Below are positions 32,132-50,588 of a DNA stretch of 64,000 nt, one piece after another. The translations under genes were made by a program, and so were the position numbers. Source of the stretch: Halalkalicoccus tibetensis (GTDB lineage: Archaea > Halobacteriota > Halobacteria > Halobacteriales > Halalkalicoccaceae); the NCBI RefSeq assembly GCF_037996645.1, contig NZ_JBBMXV010000003.1:739010-803009 (forward strand). The letters run 5' to 3'. Each line of letters opens with the position of its first letter. Positions within the stretch are counted from its first letter, which is position 1. Under the pieces are notes generated by a model. It ran no database searches. It saw only the letters and a list, made by a program, of their open reading frames with translations, and was not told the DNA's origin.

Positions 32132-32961
32132 ATGCTCAGAAATCGGCTCAATCAGAATCTCAAAGATAACGACTTAGTTTTAGCTGTTTTACTATTTATT
32201 ACTTCTATCCTTTCTATCGCGATAATATATAACTTGACGCAAGAACCCACAACTCAATCCAATATATTTGAGGGAATTGGAGTTGTTGTCGCTCTTCTCA
32301 GTATTTGTGCAAGCCATTACCAGATGAAAACAAAACAGGAGAGCACTGAAAGGCAAATCAGAGAACTTCAAAAAAAGCGCCTACAGCCGGAATATGAGGA
32401 GCGTGTCGAAATCATAGACAATTCTATAGCCAAAGCCAGTCAAAATATCGAATGCCTAACTGGAAAAGGCTTCACGGGAAATATAGACACAATATTTGAA
32501 CTTGAAAATATAGAACCCTATCACCAAAATATTTCGAAGAAAATCACACAGAATTTATTGATAGCTTGGGTAAACATCGAGAACTACTCCGGCAGCTAGA
32601 GAGAAAACAACGAGAAGCGCGAAGAGAACTGCAGAATCATCCAGAGGTAGAATTATTTGTAGACGAACACTCTACAGAGGGAGCCGATCCAATTGATTGG
32701 TTGATTGATCAAATTGTATCCTTCTCCGATACTAGCTGGGAGGAGATTGAAGAACACTTTGGCATTCAAAGAGATAGTTCTAAAATTCCTGTGCAAAACG
32801 CTATATCTGCCACACAGAGATGTAATGTGTCTGGTATATTTTATCACAAACCACAGCCAGACTGGATGCAGGAATACATAGATAAGAAAGAAGAGACTGT
32901 TGAATATTTCAAACACCAAAGAGAAATGCTAAACGATATTAGATATCAACAGCAAATCTAA
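32132..32961 (+). pseudogene. Frameshifted AT-rich membrane/coiled-coil gene
   Basis: Two overlapping frames form one protein if a single base is added. The first (from ATG 32132) has two transmembrane helices (about residues 15-35 and 47-63), a coiled coil (ERQIRELQKKRLQPEYEE), and reads up to ELENIEPYHQ; the second frame continues YFEENHTEFIDSLGKHRE and runs to the stop at 32961 with SWEEIEEHFGIQRD and GIFYHKPQPDW. The break lies at a run of A (ccaaaatat, about 32524-32529); one extra A joins them (HQKYFEEN). Length 830 bases, one short of a multiple of three. Strongly AT-rich against the rest of the window, so recently acquired. No classic slippery heptamer was found. Family unknown. Confidence 0.7.
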
Positions 32962-33256
32962 CAGCATAACCCATTATGGATACAATATTTGGCAATAGTA
33001 CTATAATATATAATATAAATATATTACACGATCTATTGGGGACTTGGTTGGTTTGTCTGTTCAAAGGCATAAATTAGAGCCGTGGACCACGTAGAGATAC
33101 AATATCTGGGGAGGGCTCCGAACCACGATCACTCCGCTTCGCTTCGTTCCCTGTTCTCGGCTCGCTTCGCTCCCCGAGACCCTACGGGTTCGTCGCGTCT
33201 TCCGGGCAACTTTTCGAGCGTTGCCACTCGTCTTCGACTCGTGGCGGTTCGAAAAG
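32962..33256. other. AT-rich to GC-rich junction with tRNA 3' repeat and cruciform
   Basis: No gene is credible here. Bases 33108-33124 exactly repeat 17 bases of the tRNA-Met T-arm/acceptor region (33262-33278), 154 bases away. Bases 33202-33217 and 33248-33263 form an imperfect 16-bp inverted repeat (CCGGGCAACTTTTCGA) around an inner GCCAC/GTGGC pair, giving a potential cruciform that overlaps the tRNA 3' end. The sequence between holds GCTTCG-rich runs common in haloarchaeal spacers. It may be an integration boundary. Confidence 0.6.
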
Positions 33257-36756: not shown

Positions 36757-36849
36757 TATTTCACTGGCTCGCCCGACTCGCCGCTCGTAGTTTAACGGTC
36801 GTGTATTACCACCATTTTCCGGTATGGGCCTCGATCCCACCCGGCACGG

Positions 36850-37027: not shown

Positions 37028-38284
37028 TCAGTCTGTCGCCCCGAACGGGTCGGTCTCGAGGCCCCGCTCGACCACCCGAACCCCGTCGAGCTCCTCGAGA
37101 GCGTCGAGGACCTCCCGCAGGTGCTCGGGACCGTTGCCCTCGACCGCGAGCTCCATCGGATGGCGGTTCGGGTCGTCGCCCGGACGCGGCTGGCCGCTCC
37201 CGACGTCCGCGAGCTTCGCCCCGCGCCCCGCGACCGCCTCCGCGATCGCGCCGACCCGCGAGCGGTTCGAGACCGCGACGCTGGGGGTCGCGTACCGCCC
37301 GAGCTCGACCAGCCCCCGCTCGACGAGCTCCGCGTGGTCGGTGAGGTCGGCGTTCCCCCCCGAGATCACGACCGCCACGTCCTCGCCCTCGACGTCGACC
37401 GCGCCCGACAGCAGCACCGCGAGGGGGGCCGCGCCCGCCGGCTCGGCCACCGTCTTCGCGCGCTCGGCCAGCAGCGCAGTCGCCGCCGCGATCGCGCCGT
37501 CGGAGACCGCCACGACGCCGTCGACCCGCCCGCGCATCGTCTCGAACGTCGTCTCGAGGAGTCGAGTGTCGGCGATCCCGTCGGCGACGGTGTCGACCCC
37601 CTCGAGCTCGTGGATCTCGCCCTTCTCGAGCGACCGGCCCGCGTGGGCCGCGCCCTCGGGCTGGACGCCGACCACCCGAACGTCGGGGTCCTGGGCCTTC
37701 AGCGCGGTCGCGATCCCGCCGATCAGCCCACCCCCGCCGATCGCCACCAGGACGGTATCGAGTTCGGGATACTGTTCGAGCAGCTCGAGCCCGACCGTCC
37801 CCTGCCCGGCGATCACCCGCTCGTCGTCGAAGGGATGGACGAACTCCAGCCCGTCGCGCTCGGCGAGCTCGAGGGCGTGTTCGTAGGAGCGCTCGTAGAT
37901 GTCGCCCTCGACGACGACCCCCGCGCCGTAGCCACGAGTCGCGGCGATCTTCGCCGCCGGCGTGATCTCCGGGACGACGACGGTCGTCTCGATCCCCAGC
38001 AGGTCGCCCGCGAGCGCGACCCCCTGGGCGTGGTTGCCCGCGCTCGCCGTGATCACGCCCCGCTCGCGCTGGCCCTCGGAGAGCTGGGCCATGCAGTTGT
38101 ACGCGCCGCGGATCTTGAACGAGCCCGTGCGCTGGGCGTTCTCCAGTTTGAGGCCCACGGAGCGCGCCCCGCTCATCCACGCGAACGTCGTCGAGCGGTC
38201 CAGCGGCGTCCGGTGAACCACCTCTCCGAGCCGTTCGCGGGCCGCCTCGACGTCCCCGACCGAGACCGGGCGCTCCCCGCTCAT
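37028..38284 (-). CDS. ilvA: Threonine ammonia-lyase
   Basis: PLP enzyme converting threonine to 2-oxobutyrate and ammonia, first step of isoleucine synthesis. The 418-residue protein has TGSFKIRGAYN (PLP lysine), ITASAGNHAQGVALAG, the phosphate-binding glycine loop AIGGGGLIGGIA, VISGGNADL, and a C-terminal ACT-type regulatory part (about 335-415, RYATPSVAVSNRSRVGAIAE onward). The ACT part argues for a biosynthetic or regulated IlvA rather than the ACT-less EutB of hydroxyectoine breakdown, which is the alternative worth noting because of the neighbouring block. Divergent from the diaminobutyrate-type aminotransferase gene. Confidence 0.92.
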   Translation of the reverse strand: MSGERPVSVGDVEAARERLGEVVHRTPLDRSTTFAWMSGARSVGLKLENAQRTGSFKIRGAYNCMAQLSEGQRERGVITASAGNHAQGVALAGDLLGIETTVVVPEITPAAKIAATRGYGAGVVVEGDIYERSYEHALELAERDGLEFVHPFDDERVIAGQGTVGLELLEQYPELDTVLVAIGGGGLIGGIATALKAQDPDVRVVGVQPEGAAHAGRSLEKGEIHELEGVDTVADGIADTRLLETTFETMRGRVDGVVAVSDGAIAAATALLAERAKTVAEPAGAAPLAVLLSGAVDVEGEDVAVVISGGNADLTDHAELVERGLVELGRYATPSVAVSNRSRVGAIAEAVAGRGAKLADVGSGQPRPGDDPNRHPMELAVEGNGPEHLREVLDALEELDGVRVVERGLETDPFGATD

Positions 38285-38418
38285 CCCGACCTACCCTCCC
38301 GTGGCGTGCTCACTCCCGACATACCTGGTCCATGCCGCGCCCCTCACTTAACTGTACACAGCGACCGTTGACCGAGGAGACGGTTACGGCCGATTGAGAC
38401 GTCCGGATCCCGCCACGA

Positions 38419-38438
38419 GAATCGAATTCCGTATACGG
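38419..38438. promoter_or_regulatory. Weak copy of shared dyad operator, aminotransferase promoter
   Basis: Bases 38429-38438 form the palindrome CCGTATACGG; on the minus strand the 20-base stretch reads CCGTATACGGAATTCGATTC, similar to the site before doeA (TATACGGATTCCG). It lies about 25 bases upstream of the TATA-like GATAAGCTATTTAG (38456-38469) of the gene starting at 38493. Confidence 0.45.
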
Positions 38439-38492: not shown

Positions 38493-39848
38493 ATGGCAGG
38501 ACCACCGATCGAGGAGCTCCACTTCGACGCGCCGGACGTCGGCGAGGTGCCGGGATCCGAATCGAAGCGGCTGCTCGAGAGACAGCGCGAGATCGACAGC
38601 AGCGCCGTCGCCTACCCCAACTCCATGCCGCTGGCCTTCGAGGAGGGGAAGGGGGCGACGCTCCGGGACGCCGACGGCAACACGTTCATCGACCTCTTCG
38701 CGGGGATCGGCGTGCTCAACGTGGGTCATTCGAATCCCTACGTGATGGAGGCGGTCCACGAGCAGGCCGACAAGCTCGTCCACACCGTCGACTTCCCCAG
38801 CGAACCGCGCCTCGAACTGATCGAGAAGCTCGACGAGATCGCGCCGGGCGAGCTCGCGGGCGATAATCGAGTCGTCTTCGGCGGGCCGACCGGCAGCGAC
38901 GCGATCGAGGCCGCGATCAAGCTCGCGAAGTACAACACCGGCGGCACCGGTCTGATCGGCTTCCGTGGAGCCTATCACGGCCCCACGAGCGGCCCGATGA
39001 GCCTCACCTCGAACAAGAAGTTCAAGGGCCACTACACCCCGCTGCTCCCGGACGTCGTCCACGCGCCCTATCCCTATCCCTTCCGGCAGGGCAAGACCGA
39101 GGACGAGGCCGTGAAGGACGCCCTCGAGGAGGTACGCTCGATCGTCGAGGACCCCTACGGCGGGCTCGCCAACCCGGCGGGGATCTTCGCCGAGCCCATC
39201 CAGGGCGAGGGCGGGGTCGTCGTCCCGCCGGAGGGCTTCCTCGAGGGGCTGCGTGAGATCGCCACCGACAACGCCCTCCCCCTCGTCTTCGACGAGATCC
39301 AGTCGGGACTGGGCCGCTCGGGCGAGTGGTTCGCCTGCGAGCACTTCGACGTGACGCCCGACGCGATGACGATGGCGAAAGCCTTGGGCGGGGCCGGCTT
39401 CCCCCTCTCGGCGACGATGTACCGCGAGGAACTCGACACCTGGGGCCCGGGCGACCACGCCGGCACCTACCGGGGCCACGTCGTCGCGATGCGCGCGGGC
39501 ACGCGGGCCATCGAGTACATCCAGGCCCACGACCTGCTGGCTCACGCCCGCGAGCTCGGCGAATACCTCCGGCAACGGCTGCGCGAGGCCGGCGAGGGCA
39601 ACGAGCTGCTCGCAGAAGTACGAGGAAAGGGGCTGTTCATCGGCGCGGAGTTCTCGCTCGACGGCGAGCCCGCCGACTGGGTCGTCGACAATATCCAGCA
39701 GTACTGCTACGAACACGGCGTGCTCGTCTGGACCGCCGGCCGCCAGGGCAACGTCCTTCGCCTGCTGCCGCCGCTCGTGCTCACCCACGAGCTGGCCGAG
39801 GTCGCGATGGACGTCGTCTGCGACGCGATCGAGCAGGCGTCCCTCTGA
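38493..39848 (+). CDS. Class III aminotransferase, diaminobutyrate-type
   Basis: PLP-dependent aminotransferase of 451 residues. Motifs: [39 protein letters not shown] (the GPTGSDAxEAAxKLA form is typical of 2,4-diaminobutyrate and GABA transaminases), [36 protein letters not shown], and the PLP lysine in [15 protein letters not shown]. Best guess: L-2,4-diaminobutyrate:2-oxoglutarate aminotransferase giving aspartate semialdehyde, the DoeD step of ectoine breakdown; GABA or ornithine as substrate cannot be excluded. ATG 38493 is 27 bases after a TATA-like CTATTTAG and is preferred to in-frame starts at 38481 and 38454. Upstream lies a palindrome related to the block's shared operator. Confidence 0.85.
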
Positions 39849-39930
39849 TCCCGTCCGGATCCGGACGTTCGTTTCGCTTTCCCCTTCTCTCGGCAGTCAG
39901 TAAACGTAATATGTGTGTGCTATCTACAGT

Positions 39931-39950
39931 AATCGGAACCGTTATTACGG
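39931..39950. promoter_or_regulatory. Dyad AACCGT-N4-ACGGTT upstream of BCCT gene
   Basis: Bases 39937-39952 read AACCGTTATTACGGTT, a perfect 6-bp inverted repeat with a 4-base spacer. On the minus strand the 20-base stretch CCGTAATAACGGTTCCGATT shares ACGGTTCC with the operator before the second aminotransferase. It is 150 bases before the transporter start, in an AT-rich promoter region with TAATATG at 39907. A related but weaker member of the motif set. Confidence 0.4.
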
Positions 39951-40098: not shown

Positions 40099-41733
40099 GT
40101 GTCCGACGACGAGCTCGGCGCGTTCGGCCGGTTCCGCGAGGAGATCGACCCGATCGTCTTCCTGGTCGGCGCCGCGATAACGATGAGCGTCATCGTGACG
40201 TTCTTCATCGATCCCACCGCCGTACAGAACGCGATCGGCTACCTCAACGGGGTGATGAACCAGTACCTGAACTGGGTGCTGCTCGTGATCGTCTTCCTGA
40301 TCGTCCTCTTCCTGATCTTCCTCATCCTCGGTCCGTGGGGCAAGATCAAGTTCGGCGACGAACCCCCCGAGTACAGCTTCGTCTCCTTCTTCACGATGCT
40401 CTACTCGGCGGGCTTCGCCGCGGGCGTGGTGTTCTGGGGGCCGACGGAGGCGCTGTTCTACTACGCCGACCCCTCGCCGCTGTTCGGCGTCGAGGCGGGG
40501 TCGGCCGAGGCGATCACCATCGCGGTCCAGCAGACGCTCTTCCACTGGGCGCTGCCCCAGCTTGCGGTCTTCACGATCATGGGGATCGCGATCGGCTACT
40601 TCGCCTACAACTACGAGGGCGTCCCCCTGCGGGTGTCCTCGGCGCTGACCCCGATCCTCGGCAAGGACAACCTCGACGGCCCCGCGGCGAAGGTGATCGA
40701 CATCCTCGCGGTGTTCGCGACCATCGGCGGCGTCGCCACCTCGCTGGGCTTCATCGGCAGCCAATTCATCAGCGGGCTGGAGTTCCAGTGGGGGATCGAC
40801 CTCGGCAACACCGGCATCCTGCTGGTGGTGACGACGATGACGCTGCTCTTCACCGTCTCGATGGTCCTCGGCGTCGACAAAGGGATCCGGCGGCTCTCCA
40901 ACTTCAACATGATCCTCTTCGTCACGCTCATGCTCGTGACGTTCATCGTCGGACCGTCCGTGTTCCTCGTTCTCCTCGGAACCCAGGCCGTCGGGGGAAT
41001 GATCAGCGACTTCGTCTCGATGAGCCTCTTCACCGGTGCCGGCGTCGAGGGCGGTACCGAGTGGACCAACGCCTGGACGGTCTTCTACTGGGCGTGGGCG
41101 CTCTCGTGGTCGCCCTTCGCGGGCCTGTTCATCGCGCGGATCTCGAAGGGGCGGACGGTCAGGGAGGTCGCCTTCACGGGCATCGCCGCGACCTCCGCGG
41201 CGACCATCCCCTGGTTCACCTTCATCGGCGGCACGGCCGTCTGGGCCCAGCACACCGGCGTCGCCGACTTCAGCGCGGTGATCGCCGGCGAGATCGGCCC
41301 GGAGACCTCCGGCTTCATCCTCTTCGAGGCGTTCCCCTTCGGGACGGTCCTGATGATCTCCTTTATGATCCTGGTGACGACGTTCTTCATCACGTCGGCG
41401 GACTCCTCGACGCTCGCCGTCTCGATGATGACCACCGGCGGGAAGGCGAGCCCCTCGACGATCAACCGGGTCTTCTGGGGCGTCGTTCTGGGGCTGACCG
41501 CCGCGATCCTCATGATCATCGGCGGCGAGGGCGGGGCCGAGGCGCTCCAGCAGGCGGTCGTCATCACCGGCGCACCGTTCGCGTTCGTCTGTTTCCTCGC
41601 GATGCTCGGGCTCGCGAAACAGTTCAGCGCGAACCACGGCCGCGTGATCCTCCAGGACGGCGCGTGGATCATCGGCTCCGGCCCCGACCGTGAGCAGCCC
41701 GCAGAGGCCCCGGCGACCGGCGATGACGATTGA
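40099..41733 (+). CDS. BCCT family compatible-solute transporter
   Basis: Sodium-coupled betaine/choline/carnitine-type carrier, 544 residues with twelve helices. Motifs: GDEPPEYSFVSFFTMLYSAG (with the glycine-rich unwound helix GFAAGVVFWGPTEALFYY), and the BCCT signature WTVFYWAWALSWSPFAGLFI with ARISKGRTVREV. Such carriers bring in glycine betaine, choline, carnitine or ectoine. Context with a DoeA-type hydrolase suggests a solute that is then broken down, possibly ectoine. GTG start at 40099. The acidic C-terminal tail ends GDDD. Upstream leader holds a perfect hairpin and a dyad related to the local operator. Confidence 0.93.
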   Translation: MSDDELGAFGRFREEIDPIVFLVGAAITMSVIVTFFIDPTAVQNAIGYLNGVMNQYLNWVLLVIVFLIVLFLIFLILGPWGKIKFGDEPPEYSFVSFFTMLYSAGFAAGVVFWGPTEALFYYADPSPLFGVEAGSAEAITIAVQQTLFHWALPQLAVFTIMGIAIGYFAYNYEGVPLRVSSALTPILGKDNLDGPAAKVIDILAVFATIGGVATSLGFIGSQFISGLEFQWGIDLGNTGILLVVTTMTLLFTVSMVLGVDKGIRRLSNFNMILFVTLMLVTFIVGPSVFLVLLGTQAVGGMISDFVSMSLFTGAGVEGGTEWTNAWTVFYWAWALSWSPFAGLFIARISKGRTVREVAFTGIAATSAATIPWFTFIGGTAVWAQHTGVADFSAVIAGEIGPETSGFILFEAFPFGTVLMISFMILVTTFFITSADSSTLAVSMMTTGGKASPSTINRVFWGVVLGLTAAILMIIGGEGGAEALQQAVVITGAPFAFVCFLAMLGLAKQFSANHGRVILQDGAWIIGSGPDREQPAEAPATGDDD

Positions 41734-41778: not shown

Positions 41779-41798
41779 CGTACACGGTTTTTGTGTAT
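41779..41798 (+). promoter_or_regulatory. Strong copy of shared dyad operator over the start codon
   Basis: CGTACACGGTTTTTGTGTAT, containing the perfect dyad TACAC-N7-GTGTA. It matches 18 of 20 bases of the site at 43768-43787 and 16 of 20 of that at 47388-47407. Its last two bases are the first two of the ATG at 41797, the same register as at 47388-47407, so a bound protein would block the transcription start of this leaderless gene. Confidence 0.6.
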
Positions 41799-42456
41799 GA
41801 CGGATGAGGGCGCGGCGAACGAGCAGTCGGTGGTCGACGGCCTCGCGTTCGATCCCGACCGGGATCGGGGCGTGTTGACCCCGAGTGACCGGGAGTTCCT
41901 GCTGGGCCGGAAGACCGACTACACCGACCACTCGAAGAAACAGAAACGAAACCGGATCCGGCGGCGGGTCCGCAACGCGCTGCTCGACTTCACCATCCTC
42001 TTCGATCACCTCGACGAGCGCGACCGCGAGACCGTCTTCGACCCCGAGGACGAGGAGCGCGACGCCTACACCCGCGGGATCACCGACACGCTGGCCTTCC
42101 TCCACCTGGGGACGATGGGCTACTCGACGCCGTTCAAACAGATGCTCGCCCGCGGGGTCTCGAAGGGCGAACAGGAGCTTGCGGGTTCGGACTACCGGAT
42201 GGTCAACGTCGAGTTCAACGTCGACCCCGTCGGACGGATCGACGTCGACGAGGTGGTCGAAAAGCTCGACGACGGTCGGTTCGATGAGCTCACCGACGAG
42301 GAGCTGCGCGCGTTCGCCCGGCTGCTGGCCGAGAGCGGGGAGTTCTCGGCCGCCCCGATCCGCGAGGGGATCAAGGGACAGATGGACGAGTTCGCAGAGC
42401 GGGCCGCAGAAGCCGCCGACCGGCGCGAGGAGCGCATCGACGAGCTGACCGACTAG
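41797..42456 (+). CDS. Haloarchaeal conserved protein (DUF5806-like)
   Basis: A 219-residue acidic soluble protein. A conserved-looking block at about residues 27-80 (REFLLGRKTDYTDHSKKQKR, then RIRRRVRNALLDFTILFDHL) is rich in basic residues, followed by a helical middle (ITDTLAFLHLGTMGYSTPFK) and a coiled-coil-like C-terminus. I associate it with the halobacterial family DUF5806 but cannot verify this. The basic YTDHSKKQKRNRIRRR stretch might bind nucleic acid; function is unknown. Its start codon is overlapped by the strongest copy of the block's shared dyad, so it probably belongs to the same regulon. The stop overlaps the convergent M20 gene by four bases. Confidence 0.75.
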   Translation: MTDEGAANEQSVVDGLAFDPDRDRGVLTPSDREFLLGRKTDYTDHSKKQKRNRIRRRVRNALLDFTILFDHLDERDRETVFDPEDEERDAYTRGITDTLAFLHLGTMGYSTPFKQMLARGVSKGEQELAGSDYRMVNVEFNVDPVGRIDVDEVVEKLDDGRFDELTDEELRAFARLLAESGEFSAAPIREGIKGQMDEFAERAAEAADRREERIDELTD

Positions 42457-43733
42457 GGACGTTCGGCCGCGATCCGCTCGATCGAGCCGACGAGCACGTC
42501 GACGGCGATCCCGAGGCTCTCCTCGTCGACGTCGAAGTGGGGGGTGTGGTGGCTGTCGGGGTGGTCCGTACCGACGACGAGATAGGAGGCGAGCCCGCCG
42601 GCCTCCTGGACCGCCTCCATGAGGAAGGTGGCGTCCTCGCTCGCGCCGAACTCCGCGCTCCTGAGGGGAGTGTCGACCCCGTCGGTCCCGGACGCGACGC
42701 CGTCGACGAGGGCCGCGAGCTCGGGGTCGCTGTCCGCGCGGGGCGACTCGCTGTGGACGTCGACGTCGACCTCACAGCCGTGCATCCGCGCGGCCGCCTC
42801 GAAGGTCCGCTCGAAGCGTTCCTTCATCGACTCCATCAGCCGGGTGGTCTCGCCGCGGACCTCCGCGGTGACCGAGACCTCCTCGGCGATGATGTTGCTG
42901 GTCGTCCCGCCCTCGACCCGGCCGACGTTCACCCGGGTCATGCCCTCGGCGTGCCGGGGGATCCCGTAGGCGTTGCTCACCGCCGTCGCCATCGCCTGGA
43001 TTGCGTTCGCCCCCTCGTCGGGCTCCTTGCCCGCGTGGGCCGACCGGCCGTGGATCTCGGCGTGTAGGTGGCTCATCGCGAGGGGCTTCTCGATCCCGGC
43101 GACGACCTCGCCGGTGGGATGGTCGAGCCCGACGTGGACACAGAGCAGGTACTCGATCCCCTCCATGTAGGGGCCCTCGGCCATCGGCCGCCCGCCGCCG
43201 CCGTCCTCCTCGGCGGGCTGGAAGAAGACGGTGAGGGTGCCCTCGAAGTCGCTCTCCTTCACTGCCTCGAGCACCCCGAGCCCGATCGTCATGTGGGCGT
43301 CGTGTCCGCAGGCGTGCATCACCCCCTCGTGTTCCGAGCGAAAGCCCTCGCGCGCCGGGAGGTGACCCTCGTCGGCGGCCTCCTCGATGAACAGCCCGTC
43401 GATGTCGACCCGCAGCCCGATCGAGGGGCCCTCGCCACACTCGAGGACGGCCACACAGCCCGTATAACCACCCTCACAGGCCGCGAGGACGTCCTCTCGC
43501 GCGCCGGCGGCACGCGCGCGCTCGAACCATCGCTCCAGCTCCTCGTCGTCCGGAACCGCCATCCGTTCCTCGCCGTCCATCGCCTCGCGACCCACCGCGA
43601 GCTCGTCCACTCCCACCCGCTCGAGCTCGTCGACCAACAGGCTCGTCGTGTAGAACTCCCGCCAGGCCGGCTCCGGATACCGGTGGAACGCCCGTCGCCA
43701 CTCGACCAGCCGGTCGTGCATCACCCGTGCCAT
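42453..43733 (-). CDS. M20 family amidohydrolase/N-deacylase
   Basis: Metal-dependent peptidase/deacylase, 426 residues. It has WRRAFHRYPEPAWREFYTTS at the N-terminus, the metal motif VMHACGHDAHMTIGLGVLEA, PAEEDGGGG (catalytic Glu and metal ligand), a dimerisation domain with GRSAHAGKEPDEGANAIQA, and GTDHPDSHHTPHFDVDEES at the C-terminus. It resembles AbgA/N-acyl-amino-acid amidohydrolases. In this block it could remove the acetyl group from N-acetyl-diaminobutyrate, replacing DoeB (inference). ATG 43733 is leaderless behind a TTTTTAAG box (43762-43769); a frame eight codons longer is rejected. A strong operator copy overlaps that TATA box. Confidence 0.88.
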   Translation of the reverse strand: MARVMHDRLVEWRRAFHRYPEPAWREFYTTSLLVDELERVGVDELAVGREAMDGEERMAVPDDEELERWFERARAAGAREDVLAACEGGYTGCVAVLECGEGPSIGLRVDIDGLFIEEAADEGHLPAREGFRSEHEGVMHACGHDAHMTIGLGVLEAVKESDFEGTLTVFFQPAEEDGGGGRPMAEGPYMEGIEYLLCVHVGLDHPTGEVVAGIEKPLAMSHLHAEIHGRSAHAGKEPDEGANAIQAMATAVSNAYGIPRHAEGMTRVNVGRVEGGTTSNIIAEEVSVTAEVRGETTRLMESMKERFERTFEAAARMHGCEVDVDVHSESPRADSDPELAALVDGVASGTDGVDTPLRSAEFGASEDATFLMEAVQEAGGLASYLVVGTDHPDSHHTPHFDVDEESLGIAVDVLVGSIERIAAERP

Positions 43734-43767
43734 TCTCTCACAACGTCGTTGCTCCACCCACTTAAAA

Positions 43768-43787
43768 ATACACAGAAACCGTGGACG
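43768..43787 (-). promoter_or_regulatory. Strong copy of shared dyad operator at M20 promoter
   Basis: On the minus strand CGTCCACGGTTTCTGTGTAT. It runs into the TATA box of the M20 deacylase gene (TTTTTAAG, 43762-43769) and lies in the divergent region shared with the D-2-hydroxyacid dehydrogenase gene, so one bound protein could act on both. 18 of 20 bases match the site at 41779-41798. Confidence 0.6.
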
Positions 43788-43829
43788 TCGAATACGAAGA
43801 CTTTAGCGCGGGGCGTCCGATCGGGGGGA

Positions 43830-44804
43830 ATGGTAGCCATGACCGAAGACACACCGGACGTAGTGGTGTTGCGCGAGGGCACCGAGGGGCTCTCGACCGA
43901 ACCGTACGCCGCGGAGCTACGCGAGCGACTGCCCGACCACGACGTGCGCCGGGCGGGGACGCCGAGCGAGGAGCGCGAACTGATCGAGCGCGCCCGGGTC
44001 GCCACCGGGGTGCGGATCGACGAGGCCCTCCTCGAGCGCGCCGAGGAGCTCGAGCTGTTCGCGTGTGCCTTCGCGGGCACCGAACACCTCCCGATCGAGG
44101 CGCTGCGCGAACGGGGCGTGGCGGTGACCAACGCCGGCGGGATCCACGCGCCCGGGCTCGCGGAGGGCGTCCTGGGGAACATGCTCGTCTTCGCCCGCCG
44201 GCTCCACGAGGGCTGGCGGCGCAAGGGTAACAGGGAGTGGCGTCACTTCCAGTCCGGCGAGCTCACGGACAGTACGGTGACGGTCGTCGGCCTCGGATCG
44301 ATCGGGCAGGCGCTCGTGAAGCGACTGGAGGGCATGGAGGTCGACACCATTGGAGTGCGCTACTCGCCCGAAAAGGGCGGGCCGACCGACGAGGTGATCG
44401 GCTTCGAGGAGGATCCCCTTCACGACGCGCTCTCGCGCACCGACTACCTCGCGATCGCCTGCCCGCTGACGGAGACGACGAGAGGGCTGATCGGCGAGGC
44501 GGAGTTCGCGACCCTGCCCCCCGAGGCGGTCCTGATCAACACCGCCCGCGGGCCGATCGTCGACACCGACGCGCTGGTCGGGGCGATCCAGACCAACTCC
44601 ATCCGGGGCGCCGCGCTCGACGTGACCGACCCCGAGCCCCTCCCGCCGGAGCACGTCCTGTGGGGCTTCGAGAACGTGTTGATCACCCCGCATACGGGCG
44701 GGCACACCCCGAAACACTGGGAACGACTGGCGGAGATCGTCGCCGGAAACGTCGGGGCCCTCGAGGAGGGCGACGAGCTCGAAAACCTCGTGGCGTCGCC
44801 CTAA
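43830..44804 (+). CDS. D-2-hydroxyacid dehydrogenase
   Basis: NAD(P)-dependent dehydrogenase, 324 residues, with the two Rossmann-like domains of the family. Motifs: VVGLGSIGQALVKRLEGMEV (dinucleotide loop), INTARGPIVDTDALV (catalytic Arg region), ALDVTDPEPLPPEHVLWGFE (catalytic Glu region) and VLITPHTGGHTPKHWERLA (catalytic His). Substrate unknown; haloarchaea carry several such enzymes. The start at 43830 is 27 bases after ACTTTAGCG (about 43799-43807); an ATG at 43839 is also in frame. Divergent from the M20 gene over a region holding the shared operator; its stop overlaps that of the convergent DoeA-like gene. Confidence 0.9.
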   Translation: MVAMTEDTPDVVVLREGTEGLSTEPYAAELRERLPDHDVRRAGTPSEERELIERARVATGVRIDEALLERAEELELFACAFAGTEHLPIEALRERGVAVTNAGGIHAPGLAEGVLGNMLVFARRLHEGWRRKGNREWRHFQSGELTDSTVTVVGLGSIGQALVKRLEGMEVDTIGVRYSPEKGGPTDEVIGFEEDPLHDALSRTDYLAIACPLTETTRGLIGEAEFATLPPEAVLINTARGPIVDTDALVGAIQTNSIRGAALDVTDPEPLPPEHVLWGFENVLITPHTGGHTPKHWERLAEIVAGNVGALEEGDELENLVASP

Positions 44805-45982
44805 ACCGGGAAGACCTTCTGGGGGAACGACGAGAACCGTTCCGCTCCGTTGGCGGTCACGCGGAACGACTCGCTGATCTCGACGCCCAGCTCGTCGGTC
44901 CAGATCCCCGGAATCATGTGGAAGGTCATGTTCTCCTTCAATACTGTCTCGTCGCCCGGTCGAAGGCTCGCGGTGTGCTCGCCCCAGTCCGGCGGGTAGC
45001 CGAGGCCCATCGAGTAGCCGATGCGGTCCTCCTTCTCGATGCCGTGTCTCGCGATCGACTCGCGCCAGGCGAGCTCGACCTCCTCGCAGGTCACGCCCGG
45101 TTCCGCCCGATCGAGCGCCGCGTTCAGCCCCTCGACGACGACCTCAGAAACCCGCTTCATCTCGTCGGGCACCCCGCCGACCACGGCGGTCCGCGCGAGC
45201 GGCGAGTGGTACCGGTGGCGACAGCCCGCGAGCTCGACGATTACGGGGTCCCCATCGGAGAAGGGCTCGTCCGACCACGTCAGATGCGGCGTCCCGGTGT
45301 GCTCGCCCGAGGGCATCAGCGGGACGATCGCGGGGTAGTCGCCGCCGAACGCCTCGGTGCCCGCGATCAGGGTGTGGTAGATCTCCGCCGCGACCGTGGA
45401 CTCGGGGACGCCCTCGCCCATCGCGTCGATCCCCGCCTGCATCGCGGCCTCCGAGAGCTGGGTCGCCTGCTCGATCAGCTCGATCTCCCGGTTGGACTTC
45501 ACCACGCGCACCCAGCTTACCAGGAGGGTGGCGTCCGAGAACGTCGCCTCCGGGAGCTCCCTCTGGAGACGCTGGTGGGACTTCGCGGTGTAGTAGTAGG
45601 CGTCCATCTCGACGCCGACGTGGGTGTCGCCCCGGCCCATCTCTTCGATCACCCGGGCGACGAAGTCCATCGGGTGTTTCCCGACCGGCGACTGGACGTG
45701 GTCGTCGCTGTAGGGCCGGATGTTGTCGTGGTCGATCCAGACGGTGGCTCTCGCGCCGTTCGCGTCCATCTGCCGGCCGACCCAGACGGGCTGGTCGTGG
45801 TCCAGCGAGACGATCAGCCCCTGATGGACGTAAAACGACCAGCCGTCGTAGCCCGCGAGGTAGTTCATGTTCGCAGGGTCGGTCACGAACAGGGTCTCGA
45901 TCCCCTCCTCGCGCATGCGGTCTTTCGTTCGCTCCAGTCGTCGCTCGTACTCCGGTTGCTCGAACGGCTGCACGGTAATCAC
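44801..45982 (-). CDS. doeA: Ectoine hydrolase-like protein, M24 family (DoeA/EutD type)
   Basis: A 393-residue creatinase/prolidase-fold protein that follows the ectoine hydrolase DoeA pattern closely: VTDPANMNYLAGYDGWSFYV, VWVGRQMDANGARATVW, AFGGDYPAIVPLMPSGEH, GYPPDWGEHTASLRPGD and FHMIPGIWTDELGVEISES. Typical M24 metal ligands are missing: where aminopeptidases have D..G then DLTRT, this protein has VELAG and SPLART, as expected for the ectoine-ring hydrolase and not for a prolidase. Predicted reaction: ectoine to N-acetyl-2,4-diaminobutyrate. Start GTG 45982 is chosen from a TATA-like AAAACATAAG (about 46009-46018); a GTG six codons upstream is possible. Downstream of a second aminotransferase on the same strand. 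Confidence 0.82.
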   Translation of the reverse strand: MITVQPFEQPEYERRLERTKDRMREEGIETLFVTDPANMNYLAGYDGWSFYVHQGLIVSLDHDQPVWVGRQMDANGARATVWIDHDNIRPYSDDHVQSPVGKHPMDFVARVIEEMGRGDTHVGVEMDAYYYTAKSHQRLQRELPEATFSDATLLVSWVRVVKSNREIELIEQATQLSEAAMQAGIDAMGEGVPESTVAAEIYHTLIAGTEAFGGDYPAIVPLMPSGEHTGTPHLTWSDEPFSDGDPVIVELAGCRHRYHSPLARTAVVGGVPDEMKRVSEVVVEGLNAALDRAEPGVTCEEVELAWRESIARHGIEKEDRIGYSMGLGYPPDWGEHTASLRPGDETVLKENMTFHMIPGIWTDELGVEISESFRVTANGAERFSSFPQKVFPV

Positions 45983-46019
45983 TAACGAGTGCCACGACAC
46001 GGCGCCGCCACTTATGTTT

Positions 46020-46049
46020 TCGTATACGAGAACAACGGAATCCGTATAT
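46020..46049 (-). promoter_or_regulatory. Palindrome and related operator upstream of doeA
   Basis: Contains the palindrome TCGTATACGA (46020-46029) and, on the minus strand, ATATACGGATTCCGTTGTTC (46049-46030), related to the block's dyad but with one extra base in the middle. Both lie directly upstream of the TATA-like AAAACATAAG of the doeA-like gene, in the gap after the upstream aminotransferase. Confidence 0.45.
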
Positions 46050-47389
46050 CAGGCCGCGTCGATCGCCTCGCGGAACAGCTCGATGCCGAGCTCGATCTCG
46101 CGTTCGGTGACGTCGAGCGGCGGCAGCAGTCGGATCGTGCTGTGGCCACAGCCCAGCGTGAGCAGCCCGCGCTGGAGGCCCGCCTTCACGACGGCGTTCC
46201 GGCGCTCCTTCGTGTCGAACTCGACGGCGAGCATCAACCCCTTCCCCCTGACGTCCTCGACGCCCTCGGGGTCGGCGTCGCGCAGTAGCTCCTGCACCTG
46301 CCGGCCGCGCTCGACGGCGTTCTCGAGCAGGTCGTGCTCGTCGATCGCGTCGAGGGTGAGAACCCCTTGGGCCGCCGCGACGAGATCTCCCCCGCCCCAG
46401 GTTGAGCCCAGGCGGTTCTTCTCCTCGGGGAAGACGTCCGAGCGGGAGATCGTCGCCCCCGATCGGAGCGCCTTCGCGCTGCAGATCACGTCGGGCTCGA
46501 TCGAGTAGTGGTCGGCGGCCCACATCTCCCCGGTGCGGCCGACTCCCGACTGGATCTCGTCGACGATCAGGTGGACGTCGTGGGTCTCACAGACGCGCTG
46601 GACTTCGTCCATGAACGCGTCGCTCGGGAACCGGTAGCCGCCGACGCCCTGGACCGGCTCGAGGACCATGAAGGCGACCTCGGCGGGGTCCATGTAGCCC
46701 CGTTCGGGGTCGAGCATCCGCTCGAGCTGCGAGCGCCCGCCCGCGAAGAAGCCACACGAACAAGTCGACTCCTCGCAGGTGCGGTCCTCGCAGAACGGGA
46801 CGGTCCGCGTGCCGGCGATCTCGGGATAGGCGCGCGTGTAGACGTCGCCGGCGCGCGTCATCGAGAGCGTTCCGAGCGTCCGGCCGTGGAAGGCCCCGAG
46901 GAAGGTGATGCCGTACTTCCGTTCGGGGGTGTTCGCATACGAGATCTTCATCGCGTTCTCGATGGCCTCGGCCCCCGAGTTCGAGAGGAAGACCGTGTCC
47001 ATGTCGTACTGCGAGGACGCCTCGACGAGCCGCTCCATCAGTTGGGCCGCCCCCGGGATCTCGGGATCCTCCGGGCCGCCCGCGGACCCGGCGTAGAAGT
47101 CCTGGCCGGCGATCTTCAGGGGATCGACGAGGTCGAACTCGGCCATTCGATCCGTTATCTTCGGGTTGTTGTATCCCAGCGGCGCGGCGCCGATGTGGCA
47201 GGTGAAATCGAGGAAGACGTTGCCGTCGAGGTCGGTACAGAACGGTCCCTCCGCCTCCCCCGAGACGTCCCACGCGAACTCGTGGGCGTGCTCGCTGGGC
47301 GCGGAGTACTGGTGGTGGTACTCGACCCATTCGCGCGTGCGCTCCCCGGGGAGCCGCCGAACGCTCGGCTCCGCGTTATCACGATCCAT
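46049..47389 (-). CDS. Class III aminotransferase with Cys-rich insert
   Basis: A 446-residue PLP aminotransferase of the GABA/lysine/ornithine type. Motifs: DLDGNVFLDFTCHIGAAPLG, LSNSGAEAIENAMKISYANT, FLGAFHGRTLGTLSMT, LIVDEIQSGVGRTGEMWAAD and the PLP-lysine region VICSAKALRSGATISRS. An insert at about residues 207-225 (CEDRTCEESTCSCGF) has four cysteines spaced like a small metal site, reminiscent of the Cys motif of archaeal GabT-like enzymes. Substrate unknown; in context it could act on diaminobutyrate or a product of it. ATG 47389 is leaderless (GTTAATAAC box 25-30 bases upstream), with the operator site ending on the start codon. Probably cotranscribed with the doeA-like gene 66 bases downstream. 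Confidence 0.88.
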   Translation of the reverse strand: MDRDNAEPSVRRLPGERTREWVEYHHQYSAPSEHAHEFAWDVSGEAEGPFCTDLDGNVFLDFTCHIGAAPLGYNNPKITDRMAEFDLVDPLKIAGQDFYAGSAGGPEDPEIPGAAQLMERLVEASSQYDMDTVFLSNSGAEAIENAMKISYANTPERKYGITFLGAFHGRTLGTLSMTRAGDVYTRAYPEIAGTRTVPFCEDRTCEESTCSCGFFAGGRSQLERMLDPERGYMDPAEVAFMVLEPVQGVGGYRFPSDAFMDEVQRVCETHDVHLIVDEIQSGVGRTGEMWAADHYSIEPDVICSAKALRSGATISRSDVFPEEKNRLGSTWGGGDLVAAAQGVLTLDAIDEHDLLENAVERGRQVQELLRDADPEGVEDVRGKGLMLAVEFDTKERRNAVVKAGLQRGLLTLGCGHSTIRLLPPLDVTEREIELGIELFREAIDAA

Positions 47390-47407
47390 ACACAGGAACC
47401 GTATACA
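47388..47407 (-). promoter_or_regulatory. Strong copy of shared dyad operator over the start codon
   Basis: On the minus strand TGTATACGGTTCCTGTGTAT, whose final AT are the first two bases of the aminotransferase ATG (47389-47387). It lies between the TATA-like GTTAATAAC (about 47412-47420) and the start, so binding would block initiation. 16 of 20 bases match the sites at 41779 and 43768. Confidence 0.6.
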
Positions 47408-47489
47408 TCGTTATTAACTCTTGTCGTCGGCGGGCGCGAGGGCGGGCGCTACCGGGTGGGGCCAGAACGGAAAAATCGAGAGGACTACC

Positions 47490-50400
47490 TCAGCACTCCG
47501 ACCAACCGCAGGACTCGCAGGTCTTGCAGCCCTCCGAGTAGTAGAGCGTCATCGAGCCGCAGTCGGGACACTCGGGGCTCTCGCCCGCGTCGATGAGGTC
47601 CTGGGGGGCGCCCTCGCTCGCGTCCGATCCGCCGGAGTCGACGGCGGCCCCGCCGTCCGTCTCGGGGGCGTCGGGCTCCACCGAGCCCTCACCCTCGAGC
47701 TCGGTGAGGTTCTGCTGTTTGGGGTAGCCCCGCTCGATGTCGCCGTCGAGATACCGGCGCAGCGCGGTGCCGATCGCGTCCGGAATGGAGTTGACCTGCT
47801 GGCCCTTGTCCCAGGCGACCTTCGGCGAGCGGATGCCCTGGAGCTCGCTCGCGATCTCCTCGGGATCGACGCCCGACCGCAGCGCCGTCGAGATGGTCTT
47901 CGCGAGCGCCTCGGTGAAGCTCGCGGTGAACCCGCCCGAGTTGCCGATGTTGGCGAACAGCTCGAACGGCCGGCCGTTCTCGTCCTCGTTGATGTTGACG
48001 TAGAGCTTGCCGTAGCCCGTGTCGATGCGCTGGGTTACGCCGTGGAGCACGTCCGGCCGGGGGCGCTTCGTGGCGTACTGGCCCGATTCGCGGGTGATCT
48101 CGAGGTCGTCCTCGAGGACCGCGCGGACCTCCTCGTGGGTGAGGAACTCGTCGATCCCGCCGAAGACCTCGCTGATCTGCTCGACGAGCGCTTCGGCGGC
48201 CTCCTCCTCGTCGGCGAACTCGGCGTTGTCCGCCCGCGTCGTGAGCACCTGCTTCGAGCGGGTGCCGTCGCGGTAGACGGTGACGCCCTTGCCGCCGTTG
48301 TCGTAGATGTAGCGGTAGACCTCCTCCATGTCCTCCTTCGAGGCGGAGTTGGGGAAGTTGCAGGTCTTCGAGATGGCGCTGTCGACGCCCCGCTGGCAGG
48401 CACACTGCACGGCGGCGTGGTCCTTGCCCGCGAGGTCCGACGTGACGACGAACAGCTCGCCGATGGCGTTGGGCACCGTCGAGAGCCCTTCGACGCCGTC
48501 GAACTCGTTGTTCTGCATCTGCTCCTGGGCCTCGTGCTTGACGGCCTCGACGTCGACGTCGTTGTCCTCTAGAACACGGAGGAAGTAGTCGTCGAACTCG
48601 ACTAGCATCTCGTCGCCCTGGACGTCGTCGCTCACGTTCTTGTAGTAGGCGACGTTGTAGATCGGCTCACAGCCGCCCGTAGTGTTGCCGACCATCGAGG
48701 TCGTGCCCGTGGGCGCGATGGTCGTCGTGTTGTGGTTCCGGATGGGGTAGCCGTCGGCCCAGTCGTCGGCGTCCTCGCCGGTCTGGCGCTCGAACCACTC
48801 GCGATACTCGGTGGGGTTCGCGTACTTCGAGTCGGCCCAGTCCTCGAACGGGCCGCGTTCGCCCGCGAGCTCGTGGCTCGCGCGCTTCGAGCCGTGGTTG
48901 ATGTGGGTCATCAGCTGGCCGGCGATCTCGTTGCCCTCTTCGCTGCCGTAGCGAACGCCGAGCTGGATGTAGAGCTGTGCCAACCCCATGACGCCCAGCC
49001 CGATCTTTCGCATCTCCCTCACTTTCCGCTCGATCTCGGGCACCGGGAAGTCGGACATCGTGACGACGTTCTCGAGGAACCGGGTGCCGAGCTCGATCCG
49101 GCGCTCGAACTCCTCGACGTCGATGGCCTCGTCGAGGTAGGCGTCGACCGCGGCCTCGAGCGAGTCGAACTCCGCGCCGTGCTCGTCGTGCCAGACCCGC
49201 CAGTCGGGCGCGTCGGTCGCCGCGAGCGTCGAGAGGTTGATGTGACCCAGGTTGCAGGCCTCGTACTCCTCCAGCGGTTGCTCGCCACAGGGGTTGGTCG
49301 CGAGGATGCGGTGGTCCGGGTTCTCCTCGACGTCGAAGGAGTGTTCCTTGTTGACCCGTTCGAGGTAGATCACGCCGGGCTCGCCGTTCTCGTAGGCGCC
49401 GTCGAGGATGCGGTCCCAGATGAGCTCCGCCGGAATGGAGAGCTCCTCGCCGACCTCGACGTGCTCGCCGAGGCCGTACCGGGAGTACATCTCCTTGGTC
49501 TCGGCGGTCGCGATGTGGGGCTCCTCCGTCCGGGGGTTCTCGAAGACGTACTCCTCGTCGTTGTACAGCGCCTCCATGAACCCGTCGGTGACCCCCACCG
49601 AGATGTTGAAGTTCGAGAGGTGGCCCTCGACGGCGTTACGGAGGTGTTTGGGGACCTTGCCGTCGTCGTCGATCAGCTCGCGGGCTTCTTCGAGTGCTTC
49701 CGAGAAGGTGGTGTAGGTGTAGTCGTCGGGGTCGTTGAGCTTCAGCGTGTGGGCCAGCGAGACGTCCTTGTTCTTCGCGTGGATGAACTCGATGACGTCG
49801 GGGTGGCTGATCCGCATCACGCCCATCTGGGCGCCGCGTCGCGCCCCGCCCTGTGCGATCGTCTCGCACATCTGGTCGAACGTGCGCATGAACGTGATCG
49901 GGCCCGACGCGATCCCGCCGGTGCTTCCGACCGAATCGCCGTAGGGGCGTAGCCGCCAGAACGCATAGCCCATCCCACCGCCCGACTGGAAGACCTCGGC
50001 GGCCTCCTTTGCGGTCTGGTGGATGTCGCTGATGTCGTCGTCGGGCGAGTCGACGAAACACGCAGAGAGCTGCTGGAGCTCGTCGCCCGCGTTCATCAGC
50101 GTGGGGCTGTTCGGGATGAACGAGAGCTGCTCCATCAGCTTCCGGAACTCGTCGGCCTTCTCCTCGACGTGCTCGCGAACCCCGCCGGGCAGCTCGGGGA
50201 CGACCGTCTCGTAGGCGAACTTGTTGACGTTGTACACCGAGAGCTCGGCCTCGGCGTCGTCGTCCGCCGTCGTTCCGGCCCCGAAGACCTCCGCGGCGAG
50301 CTCGTCGCGCCGTGGGTGGTCGGGCTTGAGCTGGTCGGGCGAGACGGTGACCTCGACGTCGCGCTTCTCGGCCTCGAAGACGGCCTCGGCGAGCGCGATG

Positions 50401-50588
50401 TTCCGTGCGACGCGAACGAAGAGGTCCTCCTGGGACTCGACGAGCTCGCCGTCCGCGTCCTTGCGGAGATACCGGGCGGGGAGGATGTTCTCGTAGGCGT
50501 TGGCGGTCAGGCGCTCCTTCAGGGTCTCGCCCTCGGTACGCTTGACCGGGAGGGTGAGCTCCTCGGCGTCGAGGTCCGCGCGGCTCAC
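47490..50588 (-). CDS. nrdJ: Adenosylcobalamin-dependent ribonucleotide reductase (class II)
   Basis: Makes deoxyribonucleotides without oxygen using adenosylcobalamin. The 1032-residue protein has an N-terminal ATP-cone-like part, the barrel with NSPTLMNAGDELQQLSACFV (first redox cysteine), VFQSGGGMGYAFWRLRP, the finger-loop motif NPCGEQPLEEYEACNLGHIN (radical-site cysteine), TGTTSMVGNTTGGCEPIYNV, and a C-terminal zinc/redox tail CPDCGSMTLYYSEGCKTC followed by ESCGWSEC. Start is GTG at 50588. The 320 bases upstream are non-coding and hold the promoter. No cobalamin riboswitch is visible there. Confidence 0.96.
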   Translation of the reverse strand: MSRADLDAEELTLPVKRTEGETLKERLTANAYENILPARYLRKDADGELVESQEDLFVRVARNIALAEAVFEAEKRDVEVTVSPDQLKPDHPRRDELAAEVFGAGTTADDDAEAELSVYNVNKFAYETVVPELPGGVREHVEEKADEFRKLMEQLSFIPNSPTLMNAGDELQQLSACFVDSPDDDISDIHQTAKEAAEVFQSGGGMGYAFWRLRPYGDSVGSTGGIASGPITFMRTFDQMCETIAQGGARRGAQMGVMRISHPDVIEFIHAKNKDVSLAHTLKLNDPDDYTYTTFSEALEEARELIDDDGKVPKHLRNAVEGHLSNFNISVGVTDGFMEALYNDEEYVFENPRTEEPHIATAETKEMYSRYGLGEHVEVGEELSIPAELIWDRILDGAYENGEPGVIYLERVNKEHSFDVEENPDHRILATNPCGEQPLEEYEACNLGHINLSTLAATDAPDWRVWHDEHGAEFDSLEAAVDAYLDEAIDVEEFERRIELGTRFLENVVTMSDFPVPEIERKVREMRKIGLGVMGLAQLYIQLGVRYGSEEGNEIAGQLMTHINHGSKRASHELAGERGPFEDWADSKYANPTEYREWFERQTGEDADDWADGYPIRNHNTTTIAPTGTTSMVGNTTGGCEPIYNVAYYKNVSDDVQGDEMLVEFDDYFLRVLEDNDVDVEAVKHEAQEQMQNNEFDGVEGLSTVPNAIGELFVVTSDLAGKDHAAVQCACQRGVDSAISKTCNFPNSASKEDMEEVYRYIYDNGGKGVTVYRDGTRSKQVLTTRADNAEFADEEEAAEALVEQISEVFGGIDEFLTHEEVRAVLEDDLEITRESGQYATKRPRPDVLHGVTQRIDTGYGKLYVNINEDENGRPFELFANIGNSGGFTASFTEALAKTISTALRSGVDPEEIASELQGIRSPKVAWDKGQQVNSIPDAIGTALRRYLDGDIERGYPKQQNLTELEGEGSVEPDAPETDGGAAVDSGGSDASEGAPQDLIDAGESPECPDCGSMTLYYSEGCKTCESCGWSEC

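Follow-up and report, generated by a model that had tools for sequence, protein, structure and literature searches.

The window analysed here, a 64,000-nucleotide stretch of the Halalkalicoccus tibetensis genome, carries a block of genes with a probable role in the breakdown of the solute ectoine (Table 1). The M24 enzyme has DoeA of PDB entry 6twk as its best PDB match (385 bits, residues 5-391) and scores 451.7 bits against the TIGR02993 equivalog, below the curated cut-off of 613; we assign it a DoeA-like function by resemblance and keep it outside TIGR02993 membership. The M20 amidohydrolase scores 111.7 bits against the DoeB2 deacetylase model NF038260, again below the curated cut-off (550). 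Between the transporter and the amidohydrolase lies the gene for a 219-residue protein, called 41797 here after its start position.

Table 1. Genes and promoter features of the block (positions in the window; site scores in bits).
Feature	Position	Strand	Basis or detail	Score
Threonine ammonia-lyase (EutB relative)	37028..38284	-	Profile matches	
O5, weaker site	38355..38371	-	TCAACGGTCGCTGTGTA; divergent promoter of the threonine ammonia-lyase-like gene and AT1	8.2
Class III aminotransferase AT1, diaminobutyrate-transaminase-like	38493..39848	+	Profile matches	
O4	39901..39917	+	TAAACGTAATATGTGTG; BCCT transporter promoter region	16.9
BCCT transporter	40099..41733	+	Profile matches	
O1	41779..41798	+	Core 17-mer 41781-41797, TACAC-GGTTTTT-GTGTA; overlaps ATG of the 41797 gene	24.9
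41797 protein, 219 aa, proposed operator-binding regulator	41797..42456	+	Single copy in this genome	
M20 amidohydrolase, DoeB2-like (weak)	42453..43733	-	Profile matches	
O2	43768..43787	-	Core 43769-43785; abuts TATA box of the M20 amidohydrolase	20.4
D-2-hydroxyacid dehydrogenase	43839..44804	+	Profile matches	
Ectoine hydrolase (DoeA/EutD)-like M24 enzyme	44801..45982	-	TIGR02993; PDB 6twk DoeA	
O6, weaker site	46032..46048	-	TATACGGATTCCGTTGT; upstream of the ectoine-hydrolase-like gene	7.3
Class III aminotransferase AT2	46049..47389	-	Profile match	
O3	47388..47407	-	Core 47389-47405; overlaps ATG of AT2	20.1
TATA-like element of AT2	47411..47418	-	GTTAATAA; upstream of O3	

The sequence-only reading of this DNA had reported three closely matching 20-mers, and we found all three with the positions, strands and registers given for them (O1 to O3); they have in common the operator motif TAYAC-N7-GTRTA(TG). 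As it had also claimed, the final AT belongs to the start codon at two of the sites (the ATGs at 41797 and 47389), and the third site, O2, continues into the amidohydrolase TATA box, TATTTTTAAG, within the divergent promoter common to this gene and the dehydrogenase. The weaker relatives that it listed hold up in part: the one at 46030 corresponds to O6, the one at 38419 falls on a position (-74) that is conserved in the AT1/lyase promoter but is degenerate here (<4 bits), the one at 39931 is outscored by O4, which that list lacked, within the same transporter promoter, and near 36795, where a partial relative had been proposed, no site reaches 4 bits. O5 is a further site absent from that list; it immediately precedes the TATA box of the lyase and recurs at the same place in loci L038 and L118.

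In the window, the dyad TAYAC-N7-GTGTA with at most one mismatch gives six strand matches (three places) against 0.51 expected, and 0 of 100 shuffles scored as high. The long motif YRYACGGTTNYTGTGTAT with at most one mismatch occurs at exactly three places in the organism's own 3.6 Mb genome, all of them in the block, so that the genome scan proposed together with the sites returned no equally strong recurrence outside it. The next-best matches genome-wide are two places at two mismatches, and both look like chance, one lying among small hypothetical genes (L022) and the other inside the codons of an IclR gene (L023). Across the genome, the loose dyad on its own is no more frequent than chance (98 strand matches vs 88 for the reversed control), and neither is the long motif at up to three mismatches (18 vs 23). 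What makes the operator specific is thus the full motif together with its register and conservation.

Conservation was evaluated mainly at AT2. Under leave-genus-out scoring, the 74 loci with the 41797 gene, from 28 genera or clades, have a median of 25.2 bits, and 73 of them reach at least 13.98 bits, the lowest value being 4.4 (L136), as compared with -38.1 to 12.2 bits at seven loci without the gene. Three loci were placed in neither class, L102 because of a contig edge at the expected gene position and L119 and L121 because the hydrolase occurs there without AT2. The best AT2 site lies at -16 in 73/74 promoters of loci with the gene. All other promoter scores come from a matrix derived from the AT2 sites of the gene-carrying loci; AT2 counts obtained with it are therefore in-sample, and the leave-genus-out test is the out-of-sample one. 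With this matrix, sites of at least 10 bits were found in 51/70 M20 promoters (35 of the 51 at -50), in 42/74 BCCT promoters and in the promoters of 17 of 24 hydrolase orthologues. These results support a shared operator for the block that overlaps leaderless start sites, and the orthologous promoters retain it.

The sequence-only reading had held that no regulator gene is adjacent and had counted 41797 as a target only, a view that our results do not support. Orthologues of 41797 are present in 134/391 haloarchaeal genomes, always together with an ectoine-hydrolase-like gene; expressed the other way, the gene is found in 134 of the 144 genomes with the hydrolase and in 0 of the 247 without it. 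At least four of the seven block genes are carried by 54 of the 61 loci found by the 41797 protein, and four of the other seven (L039, L069, L095 and L096) lie on short or end-cut contigs. Its assignment as a local autoregulated regulator draws on the operator in its own promoter, which is present here and in 28 other orthologues; among the 79 promoters examined, 29 have a site of at least 10 bits, 28 of these at -16, and the remaining 50, mainly from Natrialbaceae and Halorubrum, have none, so autoregulation is not universal.

Where the pathway is kept and the 41797 gene is absent, the operator is lost or halved at 7/7 readable loci, and well-supported branches of the AT2 tree, which used 34 of the 74 positive loci, force at least five changes of the gene-absent state. 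Sites at these loci reach the 99% level of the random-window background (17.9, a value inflated by the true sites that the background includes) in 0/5 AT1, 0/7 M20, 0/7 dehydrogenase, 0/7 hydrolase and 0/5 BCCT promoters. Two of the loci, L099 and L100, still have the right half of the AT2 site (12.2 and 11.2 bits, leave-genus-out), and the L099 site exceeds the 99% background with a symmetric matrix (18.9). At a third, L101, the long gene (labelled RNR) that adjoins the cluster is preceded by a 19.2-bit match. The conserved neighbourhood, the co-occurrence in 134/134 genomes, this joint loss and the same-register dyads of the paralogues described below make 41797 the best candidate regulator. 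We favour, at a rough probability of 0.78, the reading that this ectoine-type catabolism block is under one 17-bp dyad and that the 41797 protein is the local regulator binding it.

The joint loss could alternatively reflect a different regulator that was lost along with the 41797 gene. More generally, a protein of the IclR, Lrp/AsnC or TrmB type encoded elsewhere might bind the dyad, 41797 being only a target or accessory, and we regard this as unlikely. An IclR gene stands beside the cluster in 8/61 loci, IclR genes lie near L099 and L100, one of the two-mismatch matches in the own genome falls inside an IclR gene (contig C7), and the dyad is similar to TrmB sites, which are of the TACT-N7/8-GAGTA type. 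However, close orthologues of the cluster-type IclR, set off by a clear gap from the next relatives, occur in only 12/242 genomes, as compared with 77 of the same 242 for the 41797 gene, and we rejected IclR as a general partner for this reason; moreover, the dyad is lost where the enzymes are kept without the 41797 gene, and dyads in the same register occur at the starts of its paralogues.

We consider it highly improbable that the motif represents a promoter element common to leaderless haloarchaeal genes (an initiator or a sequence flanking the TATA box), although it is found next to TATA boxes or at start codons and the loose dyad is no commoner than chance genome-wide. The AT2 orthologues of L101, L120 and L122-L124 have TATA boxes and lack both the 41797 gene and the motif; at loci with the gene, the 99% background is exceeded in 0/52 lyase promoters and in 0/6 promoters of the adjoining long gene; and the full motif is confined to the block in its own genome. 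An RNA hairpin over the start codon, suggested by an inverted repeat that ends in it, is even less credible. The M20 and AT1 sites lie upstream of the TATA box, and a TTWA element starts -30 to -28 from the ATG in 77/81 AT2 promoters, from which leaderless transcripts are expected and the left arm should remain untranscribed.

For the 41797 protein itself, searches of Pfam and NCBIfam (E 0.001) and of PHROG (E 0.1) returned nothing; up to E 10, Pfam yields GPP34 only (0.12), and none of the IclR, Lrp/AsnC, TrmB, GntR/MocR (EnuR) or TetR family domains. A Pfam scan of 44 relatives gave weak, unrelated matches (best 0.00042), with HTH_32 in one of them at 0.056. The predicted fold is all-helical and confident (pLDDT 89.0); an initial one, based on 27 close orthologues, reached only pLDDT 44.4 and was set aside as poor. 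Foldseek searches of PDB and BFVD with the model found nothing above chance (best PDB E 1.9), nor did a second look with VIA-align at 50 chains using the whole model as query (best Z 3.6). A known DNA-binding domain was thus recognised neither by sequence nor by fold search, and a missing PDB match by itself does not show that the predicted fold is new.

In the mechanism that we propose, the dyad, with the consensus TACACA-N5-TGTGTA, would control the whole block, and the 41797 protein would bind it, probably as a dimer via its basic helix (residues 44-71). At the 41797 gene and AT2 the dyad is placed downstream of the TATA box and ahead of the leaderless start codon, where bound protein should block the polymerase; repression is therefore expected at both, in the former case as negative autoregulation. 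At M20/dehydrogenase, AT1 and the hydrolase it lies upstream of the TATA box, and binding could either activate transcription or hinder TBP/TFB. As the inducer, a pathway intermediate would release the protein from the dyad. The earlier proposal of one repressor for all genes thus stands as regards the shared operator, and pure repression is only half likely, since activation is possible at the sites upstream of TATA boxes.

Several known systems share parts of this arrangement. AcuR of Rhodobacter sphaeroides, a TetR-family protein, controls a leaderless solute-catabolism operon in which the regulator transcript starts exactly at the AUG; according to the available text, it resembles our case in its autoregulated catabolic cluster and in an inverted-repeat operator in the short region before the AUG, and differs in being bacterial and having another operator, whereas here a protein without a recognised DNA-binding domain would act at an archaeal TATA promoter (PMC3017554). 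For TrmB of Halobacterium and Haloarcula, the accessible portions describe a 19-bp, partly palindromic site close to the TATA box, with position relative to that box deciding activation or repression; Haloarcula TrmB controls scattered gluconeogenesis genes, in contrast to the present motif, which is confined to one cluster (PMC10817205). TrmB also belongs to Pfam family PF01978, to which 41797 has no match. In Proteobacteria, EnuR (MocR/GabR) and AsnC/DoeX regulate ectoine catabolism, and a PucR-type gene occurs in clusters of Bacillota, all being, in the text available, local regulators encoded in the clusters (PMC5924519, PMC13188858); their families are unrelated to 41797, and none was found in the block. 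Putative ectoine catabolism clusters were reported for Halobacteria in 2026, with EutD/DoeA, an aminotransferase and a BCCT transporter conserved between genera, and the accessible part of that report names neither a regulator nor an operator for them (PMC13188858). Neither a regulator of the haloarchaeal cluster nor the 41797 family was the subject of any paper that we found in the main text of open-licence PMC articles. The present analysis provides these putative haloarchaeal clusters with an operator, a regulon and, at the same time, a candidate regulator, and the Haloferax orthologues of 41797 make the proposal testable by existing genetics.

Members of the 41797 family at E 0.001 occur in 148/242 haloarchaeal genomes, and paralogues have dyads of their own that match in spacing and in register to the start codon. 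A dyad in the ATG register with at least four of the five arm pairs was found at 20/34 paralogues, as compared with 16/296 controls, which include paralogues. The held-out test was weaker: of its 30 loci, 12 had no recognisable motif and three of the remaining 18 no nearby in-frame ATG, and at least four pairs were seen in 7/18 vs 20/479 controls (p 1.3e-5); the excess for all five pairs (1/18 vs 5/479) was not significant, and remote held-out paralogues (beyond E 1e-50) had a start-codon dyad in 1/10 cases. Paralogue groups with different half-sites differ in the same helix stretch, residues 45-52; the comparison used three hand-picked groups, and descent is a confounder in it. Since TACTC also turns up in held-out members with that helix type, we claim no simple code. 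As the very likely regulator of the block, the 41797 protein points to a family of archaeal gene regulators that is still undescribed. We give an even chance to the wider proposal that 41797 and its haloarchaeal paralogues form a DNA-binding family with a fold unseen in PDB, in which many members would autoregulate via a 5-N7-5 dyad (TANNC-N7-GNNTA) ending in a leaderless start codon and the half-site (TAYAC, TAATC or TAGYC) would vary with basic-helix residues 45-52 as the specificity determinant. If true, a widespread haloarchaeal protein family outside Pfam and NCBIfam would acquire a function, and its paralogues with different half-sites would be a natural set for studying how a new binding family reads DNA.

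The 20-bp operator that the sequence-only reading proposed at three places in the window (41779, 43787 and 47407) was found as described, with the dyad TAYAC-N7-GTRTA and the 17-bp consensus TACACA-N5-TGTGTA. A motif scan of the 3.6 Mb haloarchaeal genome to which the window belongs (G000:C3:739010-803009) confined the full motif at one mismatch or fewer to these places. The dyad is enriched in the window (6 strand matches versus 0.51 expected); across the genome, neither the loose dyad nor the long motif at 3 mismatches exceeded the control level. Matrix scanning of the window ranked the three sites at the top and added 39901-39917 in the transporter promoter, followed at lower scores by 38355-38371 and 46032-46048, which rank alongside weak matches from an AT-rich part at 32.3-33.1 kb. 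This AT-rich stretch (32295-33112), with several weak matrix matches and GC-rich surroundings, is possibly an inserted element.

A protein search with the 219-aa protein of the block (41797..42456, plus strand) yielded 61 loci, 54 of which hold at least four of the seven block genes in shuffled order. In the promoter of AT2, one of two class III aminotransferases (AT1, AT2), the TATA box, dyad and ATG keep a constant register: the dyad sits at -16 in 73/74 promoters, and a TTWA element starts between -30 and -28 in 77/81. With matrices built without the own genus of the scored locus, AT2 reached at least 13.98 bits in 73 of the 74 loci that hold the 219-aa gene, covering 28 genera or clades, so the proposed sharing of the operator extends to orthologous promoters. 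In haloarchaea it is a genuine, shared and ancient element. In Natrialbaceae and Halorubrum, the operator of the 219-aa gene itself is degenerate or lost and that of AT2 is kept; most of these loci (L042-L098, L-numbers denoting loci from other haloarchaeal genomes) have another M20 amidohydrolase gene immediately upstream of the 219-aa gene.

The probable catabolic block in the window and operator sites in the promoters of its genes across haloarchaea (symmetric matrix, threshold 10 bits)
Feature	Window position	Content	Sites >=10 bits
Catabolic block	37 to 47.4 kb	threonine ammonia-lyase-like enzyme, AT1, AT2, BCCT transporter, 219-aa protein, M20 amidohydrolase, D-2-hydroxyacid dehydrogenase, M24 enzyme	
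219-aa gene promoters			29/79
AT1 promoters			42/58
M20 promoters			51/70
Dehydrogenase promoters (shared intergenic region)			47/52
Hydrolase promoters			17/24
BCCT promoters			42/74
Lyase promoters			1/51

Among 391 haloarchaeal genomes, the ectoine hydrolase (DoeA/EutD)-like M24 gene occurs in 144 and the 219-aa gene in 134, and comparison of the gene lists places the hydrolase in all 134 of the latter. The 10 hydrolase genomes without the 219-aa gene are a natural experiment on the operator. The AT2 start is readable in seven of them (L099, L100, L101, L120, L122, L123 and L124), and each of the seven is outscored by 73 of the 74 loci that hold the gene. L101 and L120 share a genus with L104, which has both the gene and a perfect operator, and L122, from the same family as the window's genome, lacks the gene. 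No dyad is recognisable at the AT2 start of L123 and L124; L099 and L100 retain the operator's right half there. None of the AT1, M20, dehydrogenase, hydrolase and BCCT promoters of the gene-less loci carries a site above the 99% background. Operators are retained at other promoters of L102, a fragmented genome whose contig stops where the 219-aa gene is expected. On the AT2 tree, the presence or absence of the gene changes at least five times, each change forced by supported branches. The earlier view that no adjacent gene encodes the regulator was thus not borne out: the block's own 219-aa protein is most likely the regulator of the operator. The rival partner, an IclR-type protein encoded beside the cluster, was rejected as a general one because its close orthologues are limited to 12 of 242 genomes; it is perhaps a second layer of control in a subset. 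Genes of this type, named by eye, adjoin the cluster at L040, L045, L047, L052, L056, L058, L067, L085 and L138.

The AlphaFold model of the 219-aa protein, built with 44 aligned relatives, is all-helical (pLDDT 89.0, pTM 0.65) and has a conserved basic stretch on helix 44-71, which reads KKQKRNRIRRR; residues 38-60 carry a net charge of +9, against -20 for the whole protein. A structure search with the model returned neither a PDB nor a viral match. PHROG family 26393 (unknown function) matches 13 of the 44 relatives (best E 4.7e-6), so that viral or proviral relatives may exist as well. The protein is outside every regulator family tested, and the system looks like a local regulator with its own operator, a known kind, in an apparently new protein family.

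The operators of the 219-aa gene and of AT2 sit downstream of the TATA box and ahead of the start codon. For the TrmB regulators of Halobacterium and Haloarcula, it is the site's position relative to the TATA box that decides between activation and repression (PMC10817205); by this rule the predicted regulator would repress its own gene and AT2. For M20, dehydrogenase, AT1 and hydrolase, the site precedes the TATA box, a placement from which either activation or interference with TBP/TFB may result. The inducer would presumably be a pathway intermediate, by analogy with EnuR, for which one is described in PMC5924519.

Of the named relatives found in a protein search, Halalkalicoccus paucihalophilus is the nearest (its version of the 219-aa protein is 84% identical). 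The best curated model for the M24 enzyme is ectoine hydrolase DoeA, at 451.7, below the equivalog cut-off of 613, and residues 5-391 match the DoeA chain of PDB 6twk. Since clusters of this type in Halobacteria are also given as provisional ectoine clusters in a 2026 paper (PMC13188858), ectoine is the likely substrate. A RidA-like gene (named by eye) recurs beside the cluster at 34 of the 61 loci L038-L098, which would be in keeping with deamination that involves reactive enamines. L119 and L121 have hydrolase-like and BCCT genes, with AT1, AT2, M20 and dehydrogenase absent from the fetched stretch, possibly reflecting another pathway or a split cluster. One long gene (working label RNR) follows the cluster in the window (47490-50588) and at L101, L103-L105, L117 and L118, that is, in own-genus relatives and some other genera.

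The wider haloarchaeal family of the protein has a match at E 0.001 in 148 of 242 genomes, 77 of which hold the orthologue. Many paralogue promoters carry TAATC-N7-GATTA, whose last base is the A of ATG; length, spacing and register equal those of TAYAC-N7-GTRTA, whereas the half-site differs. At least four of five arm pairs were found at the start-codon register in 20/34 paralogues versus 16/296 control positions; these were the first ATG of each of the other ORFs and still include the paralogues themselves. In a held-out set, for which the prediction was written down before the promoters were read, the counts were 7/18 paralogues versus 20/479 controls (p 1.3e-5), mostly nearer members (6/8 at E below 1e-50, 1/10 among the others). 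Groups with different half-sites differ at residues 45-52 of one helix, and a link between the two is a lead only. Some paralogues (L162, L166, L168) have a second dyad copy 43 bp upstream. The loci L110, L113, L114 and L141-L151 share a conserved paralogue of the MNTDIDRERG type, about 220 aa long, in most cases with TAATC-N7-GATTA at the start codon, and at L110, L113 and L114 it adjoins a valyl-tRNA synthetase-like gene, named by eye.
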